A DNA stretch of 64,000 nucleotides from Candidatus Nyctobacter psychrophilus (GTDB taxonomy: Bacteria; Vulcanimicrobiota; Vulcanimicrobiia; Vulcanimicrobiales; Vulcanimicrobiaceae): NCBI GenBank assembly GCA_014305025.1, contig JACRTY010000020.1, positions 1-64,000 on the forward strand, read 5' to 3'. Of this stretch, positions 41,664-47,423 are shown piece after piece (position 1 is the first letter of the stretch; the number at the start of each line of letters is the position of its first letter). The notes beneath the pieces were generated by a model. That model had not been told where the DNA came from, did not search any database, and saw only the letters and a list, made by a program, of their open reading frames with translations. A program made the position numbers and the translations under genes.

Positions 41664-42698
41664 CTACACTCGGTAACCGATTGCCGCCAAAACGCGTTGC
41701 GTGGCGAGGCCGTCGTCGAAGGTTGGCAAGGAGGCCGGATTTCCGTCCAGATTCGCGGCGAAGGCGTCGAGCAGCGTGACGAAGGGCGGCAGGTTCGGGT
41801 GCGCGGCGGCGAGATTGGCGTGCGGTTGCGGAGTGAGTTCGAGCTCCGACGTTTCATCGCCGTCGACGACGAACGTGCGCAAGTCGAGGGCGTCGGGGCC
41901 GCTCGCTACCGCCGTGCGCGTTTCACCGTGCACGGCGACGGTCACCGATTCCACGGCGCGGGTCGCGTCCACCGCCACGCTCGCCACCAGGCCGTCGCCG
42001 TAATCGAGCGTGGCGAACGCGCCATCGGCGACGTCGCTCGTAAACGTCTCGCCGTCGTTATGACGTGCGACGTTCGCGGTGCGTTCCAACCCCGCGACGC
42101 GCACGGGGGCTCGGCCGGCGAACCAGTTCGCTTGATCGACGACGTGCGAGAGCGCGGCTCCGGTCATTCCGCCGCCGTGGCGACGCTCGAACCACCACGA
42201 GTTCGGGCGCTCGCTATCCGCGCGTAACGTCGTGCTGTTCTGCGTGATTTCGATCCCACGCAGTGTTCCGAGGTGACCGTTGCGCGCGAGTTCGTGCAGC
42301 GCCTGACGCGGCGGCGTGTAGCGAAATTCGTGCGCGAGCGCGCAAACGGTACCCGCGCGCTCGGCCGCGGCGACGAGTTCCTCCGCTTGGGCGACATCGA
42401 GGGTGAACGGTTTCTCGCACAAGACGTGCAAACCGCGCTTCAGTGCGGCGGAGACGGCCGCGTGGTGTGCGAACGGCGGCGAAGCGACCGACACGACGTC
42501 GAGTTCAACGCCGTCGAGCATCTCGTCGACGGATGCGAAGGCATGTGCAACGTTGCGTTTTGCGGCGATCTCGGCGGCATGCCGCGGCGAAGCGAGCGCA
42601 ACGACCTCGAAGCGTCCCTGCGCCGCGAATGCCGGCACGTGCACCGAGCCGCCGAAACTCGAGCCGACCACCCCGACGCGGTAGCACCGCTCCTTCAC
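41664..42698 (-). CDS. Gfo/Idh/MocA-family NAD(P)-dependent oxidoreductase
   Basis: The product is 344 residues from GTG 42698, overlapping the aminotransferase stop. The Rossmann start is GVVGSSFGGSVHVPAF, followed by SPPFAHHAAVSAAL and the family hallmark CEKPFTLD (catalytic lysine). The C-terminal alpha/beta domain has GGGMTGAALSHVVDQANWFAG. Family members oxidise or reduce sugars, inositols or related alcohols and imines. It is last in the operon with LuxE- and LuxC-like enzymes. Confidence 0.88.
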   Translation of the reverse strand: MKERCYRVGVVGSSFGGSVHVPAFAAQGRFEVVALASPRHAAEIAAKRNVAHAFASVDEMLDGVELDVVSVASPPFAHHAAVSAALKRGLHVLCEKPFTLDVAQAEELVAAAERAGTVCALAHEFRYTPPRQALHELARNGHLGTLRGIEITQNSTTLRADSERPNSWWFERRHGGGMTGAALSHVVDQANWFAGRAPVRVAGLERTANVARHNDGETFTSDVADGAFATLDYGDGLVASVAVDATRAVESVTVAVHGETRTAVASGPDALDLRTFVVDGDETSELELTPQPHANLAAAHPNLPPFVTLLDAFAANLDGNPASLPTFDDGLATQRVLAAIGYRV

Positions 42699-44002
42699 GC
42701 CGGCACCGGATCGCACACGACTTCGCCGAGGAGGTCGAGCGCACGCGCGAGCTGCGCGTCGGTGATCACCGGCGGCGGTGCGAAGGTGACCGCTTCGCCG
42801 CCGAGCCCTGACTGGAGAAGCATCAATCCGCGCGCGAGCGACTGCACGACGCAAGCCGTTGCGTAGCTCGCCTCGGCAAACTCGATGGCCCACAACATGC
42901 CGCGGCCGCGTACATCCACGATGGCGGGATGTTGCCGTACAAGTGCCTGGAATGCTGCGGCGATGGCCGGTTCCCGAGCGCGAGCCACGCGTGCGATGTC
43001 GCAGCGTTCGATTTCGTCGAGGTTCGCGAGCGCTGCCGCGCAACCCATCGGGTTACCGAGATAGGTCGAGGTGTGCAACGCTTCGCCCGTCGACGGCTGC
43101 CAGGCGCTCGCGACCTCGCCACAAAGAACCGTTGCGGAGATCGGAAACCCCCCGCCGAGCGCTTTCCCGAGGCACAAAATGTCGGGCCGAACCGCTTCGC
43201 GCTCGCACGCGAACAGCGTACCGGTTCGCCCCAGACCCGTATAGATCTCGTCGAGGATCAGCAGCACGCCGTAACGCGTGCACAGCTCGCGTAACCCGCG
43301 CAGAAAGCCGTCGGGCGGAACGATGACGCCGGCGCGGCCTTGGATGGGTTCGACGATGACGGCACCGATGGCCGAGTCTTTCTTCAACGCTTTGCCGACG
43401 GCATCGAGCGAACGGTCGAGCGCCTTCGGATGTCGCGCATCCGGAAACGGCGCGAACGTCGTCGTACCGCGCAATTGTGCGCGCCACGGATCGCGGAATT
43501 TCGCGATCCCGCACACCTCAAGCGCTCCGTAACCCAGGCCATGGTAACCGCCCGCGAATGCAAGGGCCTTGGGCTCGCCGACCGCGAGAGACGCGCTTTT
43601 CAGGGCGAAGTCGATCGTTTCGCTTCCGCTCGAACAGAGGAAGATCTTCGGTTCGTCGACCGGCGCAAGGGCAGCCAGGCGGGAGAGCAGCCGCGTCCGC
43701 ACGCCGGTCGGGTGCACGTCGCCCATGCCGTGCGGCAGCCGTGCCGCCTGTTCGGCAATCGCCCGGGCGACGGCCGCATTCGCGTGCCCCGTCGTTGCAA
43801 CGCCGAACGCGGCAGTGCAGTCGAGGTAGCGGTTGCCGTCGACGTCGGTGACGAGCGCGCCCGACGCCGACTCCCAGAAGACCGGAAAGTCGCGCCCAAG
43901 ATAGGTGACGCCGCGCGTTTCCGTGCGCGCCAGCGCTGCGGCGAGTTCGAGCGAACGCGGACCGGGAATCGGCGTCACGATCGCTTCGAGTGCGTCGCTC
44001 AT
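42695..44002 (-). CDS. Class III PLP-dependent aminotransferase
   Basis: The product is 435 residues. It has the class-III fold: DVDGNRYLDCTAAFGVATTGHA, LCSSGSETIDFALKSA, the EPIQGRAGVIVPP and LILDEIYTGLGRTGT strands, and the PLP lysine in LCLGKALGGGFPI. It moves an amino group to or from an aldehyde or keto acid. Right after a LuxC-like aldehyde-forming reductase, amination of that aldehyde is a natural hypothesis. It overlaps both neighbours (ATGA upstream, GTGA downstream). Confidence 0.9.
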   Translation of the reverse strand: MSDALEAIVTPIPGPRSLELAAALARTETRGVTYLGRDFPVFWESASGALVTDVDGNRYLDCTAAFGVATTGHANAAVARAIAEQAARLPHGMGDVHPTGVRTRLLSRLAALAPVDEPKIFLCSSGSETIDFALKSASLAVGEPKALAFAGGYHGLGYGALEVCGIAKFRDPWRAQLRGTTTFAPFPDARHPKALDRSLDAVGKALKKDSAIGAVIVEPIQGRAGVIVPPDGFLRGLRELCTRYGVLLILDEIYTGLGRTGTLFACEREAVRPDILCLGKALGGGFPISATVLCGEVASAWQPSTGEALHTSTYLGNPMGCAAALANLDEIERCDIARVARAREPAIAAAFQALVRQHPAIVDVRGRGMLWAIEFAEASYATACVVQSLARGLMLLQSGLGGEAVTFAPPPVITDAQLARALDLLGEVVCDPVPA

Positions 44003-45225
44003 TGCCGATAGATAGCCCGCACGAAGGGAAGAATCCGCCCCTCGCCACCGTGCTCGCCACCGAGCGGCGGCGCTTGCAGCCGCCCGAGCAAGGCGATCCG
44101 CGATGCGCCGCTTTGCCGGGCGACGGCCTCAACGTCCGGGCGCTTGCCGGCGACCACCCCGAAGGCTTCCAGCGGCAGCGCGTGGCGCTGCACGTACGCA
44201 AGCGCCTCCTGCGGCCCGTCGACGGGATAGACGGCCAAGGTCCGAGGCAGCAGCGGAGGCGGTTCATCGACCGGCGGATCGTACGCGACGAGGTGCGGCG
44301 AAACGATGCCGTCGTAAACGGCGCCGCGACCGGCGGCCGCGCGAAAAAGTGCCGCCCGGCGATAGGCGGCGACGGCCGCCGGCGCCCGGCGGAATCCAGC
44401 CGGAAACTCGATCGCAACGTGATCGCACGCCCGCGCCACCGTAGGCGCGAACTCGCGCGGCGCGATCGCTCCGCCGCGCTCGACAAAGAGCGCGTGCAGC
44501 GAAAGACATCCGTCGCCATCGTAGAGCAGTGCGTCGCGCGCTGCGTCGCGCGCCACGCTGATTGCCGCCATCTCGTCGCACAACGCTTCTCGGGCGACAT
44601 AAGCGATGCTCGTACGATGACCGAAAGCAACGAAGCGCGTTTGCGCTGCAAGCTGCGCGCGAATCGCCCTGAGCGCGGCGTCACTTCCATACGCGAGGAC
44701 AACCTGGGCATCGCTGAGGTGCGCGCGCGATTGCGCGGGGTCACCGCCCTCCCAGACTTCGACGGTGACGCGTTGCGCCAACGCCGGTTCTTCCTCGGCC
44801 AGCGTCTCCACGAATGCCGCCGCGAGCCGATCATCGCGGTCCTTCACCGTCACCTGCGCCTTGGCGCACAACGCGAAGACGAGCGCCGGCAGGGCGACGC
44901 CGATCGTCGTGTCGCTCGCCACGATGACGGCCGGGGAAGCGCCGCGGAAAGACACGGGCGGGCGCCCCGCCCGCTCGACGAAGCCGTCCAGCGCTGCGAC
45001 GGACCCAAGTTCGCCCGCGATCGTTGCTTCAATGGCGCTGCGATCGATTGACTCGAAAAGCCGATCCAGAGCAAAATCGACGACCGGCTCGGTGTAGCCC
45101 GTCCGCTCCATGACGGCGCGCGTGGCACGAATGCGTGGCGGAAAGTCTGCGTTGCACCACCGTTCCGCTGCAGCGGCGAGCGCGGCAACGATTCGGCCGG
45201 CCGCGAGTTCTCCGTGCCCTTGCAC
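43999..45225 (-). CDS. LuxC-like acyl-CoA/acyl-protein reductase
   Basis: The product is 408 residues from GTG 45225. It has the LuxC-family (aldehyde-dehydrogenase-like) layout: VIVASDTTIGVALPALVFALCAKA, AYGSDAALRAIRAQL, FGHRTSIAYV and the catalytic cysteine C240 in YDGDGCLSLHALFVE. LuxC reduces an acyl thioester to a fatty aldehyde with NADPH. It is directly preceded by a LuxE-like gene, as in the fatty-acid-reductase pair of luminous bacteria, but no luxA, luxB or luxD is present. Confidence 0.85.
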   Translation of the reverse strand: MQGHGELAAGRIVAALAAAAERWCNADFPPRIRATRAVMERTGYTEPVVDFALDRLFESIDRSAIEATIAGELGSVAALDGFVERAGRPPVSFRGASPAVIVASDTTIGVALPALVFALCAKAQVTVKDRDDRLAAAFVETLAEEEPALAQRVTVEVWEGGDPAQSRAHLSDAQVVLAYGSDAALRAIRAQLAAQTRFVAFGHRTSIAYVAREALCDEMAAISVARDAARDALLYDGDGCLSLHALFVERGGAIAPREFAPTVARACDHVAIEFPAGFRRAPAAVAAYRRAALFRAAAGRGAVYDGIVSPHLVAYDPPVDEPPPLLPRTLAVYPVDGPQEALAYVQRHALPLEAFGVVAGKRPDVEAVARQSGASRIALLGRLQAPPLGGEHGGEGRILPFVRAIYRQ

Positions 45226-45226
45226 G

Positions 45227-46333
45227 TCAGCGTACGCGGGCGATCAGATCTTCGGCAACGAGCGAACATCCCCGCGGAGCCGCATCGAGTTCGCGCTCGA
45301 GCAGAACGATGCCGCCGCCGCTTGCGTAGCCGCGATCCTCGGTATCGATGGCGACGACCGACGAGCGGTTGCCCAGATCGACGTGCCGTAGAAATCCGGC
45401 CTCTCCATCGTTGACCTGCCGCCCTTCAGCGTCGACGACCAGGGTGCGCAGCCACGGCGGTGAGCGCTTGACCCGTATCGTGGAGTCACGGCTCTCGACC
45501 CCGTCGTAATACTGGCTGACCAATTCGGTCATGCCATACTCGCCCACGATCGAGGCGGCGGTAATTCCGAATGCGGTCTCGAGCCGAGCGTAGAGTTCGG
45601 TCCGTTCGACGACGCGCGCTCGTCCTTTGAAGCCGCCGGTCTCCATAATGCGTGAGCCGGCCGGAGCGGCGAAACGCTGCGCGTTCGCTTCGAGCGCATC
45701 GAGCAGCGCGACCAAAGCGAAGGCGGTCCCGGCGAGGCACACCGGCTGCGCATCGGCAACCGCCGACTCCCACGCGTGCACGAACCCTGCAGCGTCGACG
45801 CCGCGGTCCTCGTCGAAAAGATACTCCGCGTGACCGTCGCCTCGCAAGACGGATACCGTCCCCATCATGTAGCCTAGCGACGAATGCCGCCGCAGGCGCG
45901 GGTTGGGAACGACGTTCAAGTACCGAAGTTTCGCCCGGTCCGGAAGGATGAACCGATCGAACCCCGCCAGCAACGCGGCATCGTACAAGCGCGCACGTGC
46001 GATGCAGTGCCGGCCCGCTACGTCCGCCGTCGTGCCGCTCGTATGAAAGATCAGCTCCGCTTCGCGCGGATCGCACGTCGCTAGGACGGCGTCTTTGAAG
46101 GCGCTCGCGGGTGCAGCCGGAATCTCGCGCCAAGTTCGCGGCCGATGCGCGGGGTCGATTCCGAACGTTGCGGCGTAGCGCGCATACGGAGCGTTTCGTT
46201 CGAGCTGATACCCGCACGTTGCGCGCGCCAGTTCATCGAAGCGCGCCTCATCACAGCCCGGGCCACCGGCCGCCCAATTCGCGACGATGCCCAGGAATGC
46301 GTCGTCCAACTCGCGCGCCCGCGCGTCGTTCAC
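45227..46333 (-). CDS. LuxE-like acyl-protein synthetase
   Basis: The product is 368 residues from GTG 46333 (GTGA overlap upstream). The adenylation motif FHTSGTTADVAGRH near residue 100 and ETGGFKGRARVV plus GEYGMTELVSQYYDG are typical of LuxE/PaaK-like enzymes. A cysteine about 12 residues from the C-terminus (RGCSLVAEDL) matches the acyl-acceptor cysteine of LuxE. It would activate a carboxylate as acyl-AMP and hold it as a thioester for the LuxC-like reductase encoded next. The chain length or type of acid is unknown. Confidence 0.85.
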   Translation of the reverse strand: MNDARARELDDAFLGIVANWAAGGPGCDEARFDELARATCGYQLERNAPYARYAATFGIDPAHRPRTWREIPAAPASAFKDAVLATCDPREAELIFHTSGTTADVAGRHCIARARLYDAALLAGFDRFILPDRAKLRYLNVVPNPRLRRHSSLGYMMGTVSVLRGDGHAEYLFDEDRGVDAAGFVHAWESAVADAQPVCLAGTAFALVALLDALEANAQRFAAPAGSRIMETGGFKGRARVVERTELYARLETAFGITAASIVGEYGMTELVSQYYDGVESRDSTIRVKRSPPWLRTLVVDAEGRQVNDGEAGFLRHVDLGNRSSVVAIDTEDRGYASGGGIVLLERELDAAPRGCSLVAEDLIARVR

Positions 46334-46752
46334 CGCTCGAGCCGAATCGCTTCGATCTTCAGGCAGCGGTCGACGACGACGTCCAGTCCCGCAGCGTCGG
46401 CCAACGCAATTGCCTCTGCGTTGACGACGCCGTACTGAAACCAAATCGCCTTGGCGCCGGCGGCAATGGCCTCACGCGCGACCGCAACTGCCTCGGACGC
46501 GCGACGGAAGACGTCGACGATGTCAGGCGAGCCTCGCTCGGCGGCATAGGCCTCGAGCGAACCGTACGCCGAAACGCCGTCGATCGCTGCGGCGCCGGGG
46601 TTGATCGGCGTGACATCGAAGCGTTCCATCCGGCGCAACCGCGTGAAGACGTCGTGGCTCGGTCGCGCGGGGTTGGGTGAAGCGCCCACGACCGCGATGG
46701 TGTGCGAACGCCGCAGCAGGTCGTCGATTGCGGTGCTGCTCTCGATGATCAC
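46330..46752 (-). CDS. CoA-binding domain protein (YccU-like)
   Basis: The product is 140 residues from GTG 46752, overlapping the upstream stop. It has the CoA-binding Rossmann pattern: [59 protein letters not shown] and the end [12 protein letters not shown]. Such stand-alone domains bind CoA or acyl-CoA; their function is not established. It overlaps the LuxE-like gene, which handles acyl groups. Confidence 0.92.
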
Positions 46753-47423
46753 TTCTTCCGGCGAGGAGCGGGCGATGGACGCGGCGTGCCGCGGTGTTCG
46801 GCCGTGAACGCCGTCTGATTGGCCGCCGATTTATCCTCATAATTGGTCAGGCCCACCATGTCCGACGCGCCCTCGACGTAACCGTTGAAAGCAACGTTGC
46901 TTGCGCCTTGGGTGACGGTAAGATGGATCAAGCGCCCGTCGTAGGTGCCGGTCAGCGGGTACGGCTTTCCCTTGACGCGCCACGAGCCGGTCAATTCCCC
47001 GCCCGCGCCATTCTGACGAAGATCGAAATACGAATAGTCGGTGTGGTCGATATACTGGAGTTGCACTTCCCACGTGCCGTCGAGCGTGGCAAACGCGGGC
47101 GAGGTCGGCGTCGCGGTCGGTTCGGGCGCCGACGGCGCGGCGGAGGGAGCCGGGGAAGCGTTTGCGTTCGTGCGACCGCGCCGCCGCCCGCGCGGCGCAG
47201 CGGTCGGGGTGACCGTCGGCACCGGAACACCGCTGGGCAACGCGGTCGGCAAGGTCGTGGGCGCCACGGTCGCATTGAGGGACGGCCCGGGAACCGGCGG
47301 AGCCGGAGGAGCGGCCTGCGCCCCGACCCGCGTTCCGCTCGCCGGACCGAATCCGATCCCCAGAGCCACGCCGACGGTGAGTGCGAGCGTCCAGAGAGAA
47401 CGCGGGTGACCTGCCTGCTTCAA
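46749..47423 (-). CDS. Exported protein with proline-rich linker and beta domain
   Basis: The product is 224 residues from TTG 47423, which has GGAG eight bases upstream and places a signal peptide at the N-terminus ([21 protein letters not shown]). Residues about 35-105 are a proline/alanine/threonine-rich linker with a basic RGRRRGRTN patch. The C-terminal about 100 residues form a beta-strand domain ([49 protein letters not shown]) like lipocalin-type or DUF-type carriers. It heads the operon with the LuxE/LuxC-like genes, and its stop overlaps the next start. Confidence 0.7.

Follow-up and report, generated by a model that had tools for sequence, protein, structure and literature searches.

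Queuosine is a widespread tRNA modification with preQ1 (7-aminomethyl-7-deazaguanine) as its building block. In the canonical route 7-carboxy-7-deazaguanine (CDG) is converted to preQ0 by QueC, and preQ0 to preQ1 by QueF (PMC11130926, PMC13329287). LuxC and LuxE form a pair in luminous bacteria (PDB 7xc6), and a LuxE-type domain serves outside luminescence in Vibrio cholerae RfbN, which belongs to the O-antigen pathway of 3-deoxy-glycero-tetronic acid and is likened here by description only (PMC4772473). We analyzed a stretch of 64,000 nucleotides, the window, from Candidatus Nyctobacter psychrophilus (contig JACRTY010000020.1), in which six minus-strand open reading frames (ORFs) lie end to end at positions 41664-47423. 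Three of them, encoding a LuxE-like enzyme, a LuxC-like enzyme and a class-III aminotransferase (AMT), form a trio that likely constitutes a nitrile-free route from CDG via 7-formyl-7-deazaguanine to preQ1, bypassing preQ0 and replacing QueC and QueF in several phyla. The trio consists of the following genes.

45227..46333, minus strand: LuxE-like adenylating enzyme, 368 amino acids, GTG start; NCBIfam LuxE 49.5 bits; Cys356 invariant
43999..45225, minus strand: LuxC-like acyl reductase, 408 amino acids, GTG start; catalytic Cys240; PF05893 148.6 bits (cutoff 21)
42695..44002, minus strand: class-III AMT, 435 amino acids; pyridoxal phosphate (PLP) Lys280; YHGL/QGR subfamily; PF00202 309 bits

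The LuxE family profile gave a single PDB match, the LuxE of 7xc6 (E=2e-32), and the LuxC profile matched the LuxC of the same structure (E=5e-28). Both pairs are homologous and share the LuxE cysteine of the GCS motif near the C-terminus and the LuxC catalytic cysteine; Cys356 and Cys240, aligned to 7xc6, were invariant in 38 aligned homologues each. Further conserved features of LuxE were the SGTT and EYGMTE motifs, Asp333 and Gly355-Cys356-Ser357. Unlike the luminous pair, the LuxE-like and LuxC-like proteins scored far under the NCBIfam equivalog cutoffs (49.5 vs 550 bits and 25 vs 750 bits, respectively), the LuxE-like protein had no match at all to Pfam LuxE (PF04443), the trio has an aminotransferase partner, and annotating ORFs and families at the locus and in its relatives showed no luxA, luxB or luxD. 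An earlier note on this DNA had likewise seen none of these three genes nearby, and had correctly pointed to C240 of LuxC. Its refuting conditions were a LuxC-like gene placed outside the acyl reductases, catalytic cysteines lost in relatives and a gene order that is not conserved; none of them was borne out.

The AlphaFold2 model of LuxE (predicted local distance difference test score 91) has a PaaK-like fold. Its nearest structures were PaaK, ClxA (3-amino-4-hydroxybenzoate), a putative acyl-CoA ligase of Bacteroides and a phenazine biosynthesis protein, mostly aromatic-acid enzymes; the LuxE of 7xc6 was not among the best 50 structures listed for the model, though it was the only sequence match. 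In other families of Eremiobacterota, at L041 (4265-6928) and L042 (9104-11761), LuxC and a PaaK-like AMP-binding domain are joined in a protein of 885 residues, with a true LuxE before it and a PALP enzyme upstream.

The operon is conserved far beyond chance, since LuxC was present in all 36 same-family and all four same-order relatives and the gene order was kept; in another family of the class, 10 of 14 genomes had a divergent LuxC. Named matches place the kin of the window in Eremiobacterota, where L143 and L151 share the five-gene order and the family of the window, its order-mate f2 and f3 of the same class all retain LuxE-LuxC-AMT. A LuxE scan of GTDB genomes, the kind of neighbourhood search that the earlier note had proposed, recovered the trio beyond the phylum in Myxococcota, Deltaproteobacteria, Verrucomicrobia and Omnitrophota, with the AMT upstream of LuxE. 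The Myxococcota trios have folK and SUF genes as neighbours, which alone indicate no pathway. In 13 genomes with LuxE-LuxC unlinked to an AMT (Gemmatimonadota, Verrucomicrobiota and others), a trio-type AMT was found elsewhere at 45-56% identity, and in genome G021 LuxC and AMT are fused in a single frame of 892 residues (locus L039). Thus, given the conservation across phyla, the retained catalytic residues and the LuxC-AMT fusion, a chemistry from acid to aldehyde to amine is well supported on comparative grounds. The suggestion of the earlier note that LuxE and LuxC reduce an acid to an aldehyde, which the AMT turns into an amine, gains further from the co-occurrence of the three genes when unlinked.

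Queuosine genes were found next to the trio in several genomes. L119 has the order QueE-AMT-LuxE-LuxC (QueE 303.7 bits, cutoff 300), one genome carries QueE-AMT at L245 together with LuxE-LuxC-QueD at L141 (QueD 102 bits, cutoff 89), L144 has LuxE-LuxC-QueD (QueD by motif) and at L160 QueE adjoins LuxE. QueE beside the trio or its AMT is seen in Verrucomicrobiota. A motif scan flagged 5/39 loci with the trio or LuxEC as containing QueD or QueE, vs 0/41 loci of a related operon type in which LuxE-LuxC is followed by a short-chain dehydrogenase/reductase (SDR); it missed the QueE of L160, the sixth case, which was found by the NCBIfam profile. In seven genomes of f3, which are related and not independent events, a single contig carries the trio and, at a distance of 13-25 kb, QueE.

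If the trio replaces QueC and QueF, genomes with the trio should keep QueD, QueE and QueA, without QueC and QueF. Eighty genomes were compared, 72 with the LuxE/LuxC genes (44 Eremiobacterota of families f1-f3 and 28 others) against eight further genomes. LuxC was detected in 42 of the 44 and a trio-type AMT in 27 of the 28. Profile searches, in which at least 70 bits was taken as a true hit for QueF and at least 160 bits as canonical level for QueC, returned QueF in none of the 44 f1-f3 genomes and none of the 28 others, and canonical QueC in none of the 72, f1-f3 included. True QueF hits occurred only in all five SDR-type controls and in G057, and canonical-level QueC only in these controls, G057 and G058. 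The weak matches to the QueF profile (24-31 bits) were confined to profile positions 1-61 and probably reflect the related GTP cyclohydrolase fold. QueA was present in 77 of the 80 genomes (43/44 in f1-f3). Every one of the 44 f1-f3 genomes also gave a QueE hit, with scores of 86-114 bits. In the genome of the window, QueD (97.8 bits, cutoff 89) and QueE (113 bits) adjoin each other, and QueA scores 415 bits (cutoff 324). G057, of Eremiobacterota family f6, has neither LuxC nor the trio and possesses QueC, QueF, QueE and QueA; judged by these matches, it is the complementary case inside the phylum, with canonical QueC/QueF where the trio is absent. Incompleteness of metagenome-assembled genomes (MAGs) could hide genes, but hardly the same two genes across so many genomes.

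Because of the QueE/QueD neighbours and the loss of QueC/QueF, we infer CDG as the substrate; product and each chemical step are likewise inferred. QueD and QueE, encoded elsewhere in the genome, would make CDG, the carboxylate of which would be adenylated by the LuxE-like enzyme with ATP and its acyl group loaded onto Cys356. Transfer of the acyl group to Cys240 of LuxC and its reduction by NAD(P)H would then give 7-formyl-7-deazaguanine, from which the PLP-dependent AMT (Lys280) would form preQ1 using an amine donor, and preQ1 would be used as usual by TGT and QueA. Both this and the canonical route would start at CDG from QueD/QueE and end at preQ1 for QueA. The proteins, however, are unrelated, and QueC/QueF proceed via amide, nitrile and nitrile reduction whereas the trio would use an activated carboxylate, an aldehyde and transamination. 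A full-text literature search, judged by titles and abstracts, gave no link between LuxE and queuosine, and LuxE is unmentioned in the publications on QueC diversity and queuosine transport (PMC11130926, PMC13329287).

The AMT fits such a substrate. Lys280 was invariant in 37 sequences, and the trio-type enzymes form a distinct subfamily with YHGL and QGR (or nearly always QGR) motifs that has lost a C-terminal arginine which paralogues resembling GabT, OAT and putrescine transaminase in the same genome possess. Features of GABA-type enzymes are, in GabT numbering, the carboxylate-binding arginines R141 and R398 together with E211; set against a GabT-like paralogue from their genome, trio AMTs lack these features and have lost the R398 position. 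Loss of the carboxylate-binding arginines would be expected if the substrate carries no such carboxylate, and a GABA-type substrate was rejected on this ground. Like the PigE-type reductase-aminotransferase of prodigiosin synthesis, the trio couples a class-III aminotransferase to an aldehyde-forming activity; the NCBIfam PigE profile matches the trio AMT at 258 bits, far below its cutoff of 850 bits. This comparison covers the aminotransferase part; G021 also has the LuxC-AMT fusion. Flagellin-glycan islands with LuxC/LuxE were rejected as equivalents, as their aminotransferases are of the different DegT/PseC type.

The SDR-type operons (Azospirillum, Pantoea, Bacillales, Lactiplantibacillus) contain LuxC and the nearest non-trio relatives of the trio LuxE, about 31-44% identical to an f3 LuxE; in the tree the SDR-type LuxE forms a separate clade with 98% support. 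Unlike the trio, these operons end with the SDR, for which an alcohol product is presumed, encode an importer of the ATP-binding cassette (ABC) or NCS2 type and in many cases carry a thiamine pyrophosphate (TPP) riboswitch, and the five genomes tested keep QueC and QueF. No trio-type AMT was found in ten SDR-type genomes searched, the best match being not above 40% identity. TPP riboswitches were detected in 7/9 proteobacterial SDR-type loci and in several of the Bacillota loci searched, in most cases immediately ahead of the operon. Those before LuxE-LuxC-SDR are listed here by locus.

L084, 1390-1497: TPP riboswitch
L135, 5226-5336: TPP riboswitch
L132, 6298-6405: TPP riboswitch
L129, 6801-6913: TPP riboswitch
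L131, 6788-6917: TPP riboswitch
L115, 6710-6837: TPP riboswitch
L089, 6825-6927: TPP riboswitch
L091, 6801-6892: TPP riboswitch
L106, 6644-6737: TPP riboswitch

The importers in these riboswitch-bearing operons are of the SsuABC type or NCS2. Riboswitches, importer and SDR together suggest that SDR-type operons salvage a thiamine-pyrimidine carboxylate by reducing the acid via the aldehyde to the alcohol. The conversion of CDG to preQ1 would be analogous, except that an aminotransferase would take the final step, and the LuxE/LuxC family may serve cofactor metabolism generally wherever heteroaromatic acids are reduced.

Several other products were weighed. The earlier note had proposed a fatty aldehyde and from it a fatty amine, i.e. 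an amino-lipid or alkyl amine. Its aldehyde and amine chemistry is supported, whereas the fatty product is not: the LuxE relatives in thiamine-riboswitch operons point to small heterocycles, QueE/QueD neighbours and QueC/QueF loss indicate CDG and would be left unexplained, and the LuxE model resembles aromatic-acid adenylases. The substrate is thus probably not a fatty acid, and a fatty amine pathway is very unlikely, even though LuxE/LuxC of luminous bacteria act on fatty acids, PlsX lies near the AMT in L241 and FabI directly upstream of the trio-type AMT in three Gemmatimonadota (L243, L246 and L247; enoyl-acyl carrier protein reductase of the PRK06300 type, 478 bits in L247). The polar lipids of Vulcanimicrobium alpinum, which might accommodate such a product, are described only as unidentified (PMC9758169), and the idea of a membrane lipid was dropped. 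Thiamine-pyrimidine chemistry, in which a pyrimidine carboxylate would become an aminomethyl pyrimidine in parallel to the SDR-type operons, is suggested by the TPP riboswitches of these closest relatives; yet Rfam searches of a stretch of the window and of 10 trio/LuxEC loci revealed no TPP, preQ1 or other riboswitch, the trio has no importer, the SDR-type LuxE falls into its separate clade and the QueC/QueF pattern would find no explanation, so that we give this reading very little credence. A conversion of malonate via malonic semialdehyde to beta-alanine, substituting PanD for CoA synthesis, would account for the absence of PanD in 59/60 Eremiobacterota (G000-G059), with PanC present in 58/60. 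However, PanD is also missing from trio-free Eremiobacterota and is kept in 5/14 other trio genomes, on which ground the replacement was rejected; in addition, no pan gene was seen adjoining the trio and the AMT lacks the GabT arginine for an omega-carboxylate, which makes beta-alanine hardly credible. Lysine or ornithine synthesis, considered for homoaconitase-family genes nearby, was set aside in view of the queuosine evidence.

Observations that weigh against the preQ1 route include the FabI genes mentioned above and the possibility that the trio yields a different 7-deazaguanine or a pterin, preQ1 itself being imported. Linkage to QueD/QueE is compatible with any CDG product, and other bacteria are known to salvage queuosine precursors (PMC11130926). 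That the whole clade retains QueA alongside QueD, QueE and the trio, however, fits de novo preQ1 better, and the trio chemistry would end exactly at preQ1; this alternative seems improbable. To the same side belong that the trio is not adjacent to que genes in the window's order, that Fisher tests of 72 vs 8 genomes (p=9e-8 for QueF, 2.5e-9 for QueC) ignore kinship, and that seven of the genomes compared contain QueC-like proteins of 80-123 bits, of which two were tested and scored 74 and 83 vs a cutoff of 150. Trio-free G058 and G056 are also without full-strength QueF, and f3 genomes G051 and G052 miss QueC/QueF while LuxC was undetected there with the window protein. Finally, QueE was weak (34-47 bits) in some Myxococcota trio genomes and missed in the probably incomplete MAGs G061 and G074, a shortfall softened by the profile being weak on control G101 as well.

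If true, the preQ1 route would be a second bacterial path from CDG to preQ1 that fills the QueC/QueF gap in these phyla, would correct predictions of obligate queuosine-precursor import for such bacteria, and would explain what LuxE/LuxC homologues do whose present annotation refers to bioluminescence or long-chain fatty acids. Three enzymes that together turn the carboxylic acid on a heteroaromatic ring into a primary amine would also be of interest for biocatalysis.

The six-gene arrangement described in the earlier note and all five of its junctions (GTGA, GTGA, a one-base gap in TGA-C-GTG, ATGA, GTGA) were confirmed on the sequence. The remaining three genes are as follows.

41664..42698, minus strand: Gfo/Idh/MocA oxidoreductase, 344 amino acids; PF01408 98 bits
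46330..46752, minus strand: CoA_binding_2 protein, 140 amino acids; PF13380 121 bits
46749..47423, minus strand: exported protein, rich in Pro/Thr and with a beta domain at the C-terminus; start codon uncertain

These are lineage-specific neighbours, and the trio is the core. The Gfo/Idh enzyme and the CoA-binding protein, which the earlier note had listed in the operon, are kept only within the window's order and are not core because they are missing from the trio in other lineages; the Gfo/Idh gene follows the AMT within the order and is absent in f3 and other phyla. In relatives the CoA_binding_2 gene is often preceded by a same-strand O-acetylhomoserine sulfhydrylase gene, hence its partner may be that enzyme rather than LuxE. 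The exported protein matched no family in Pfam and NCBIfam profile searches; its homologues are found near the operon across the order in either orientation, with the C-terminal beta domain conserved.

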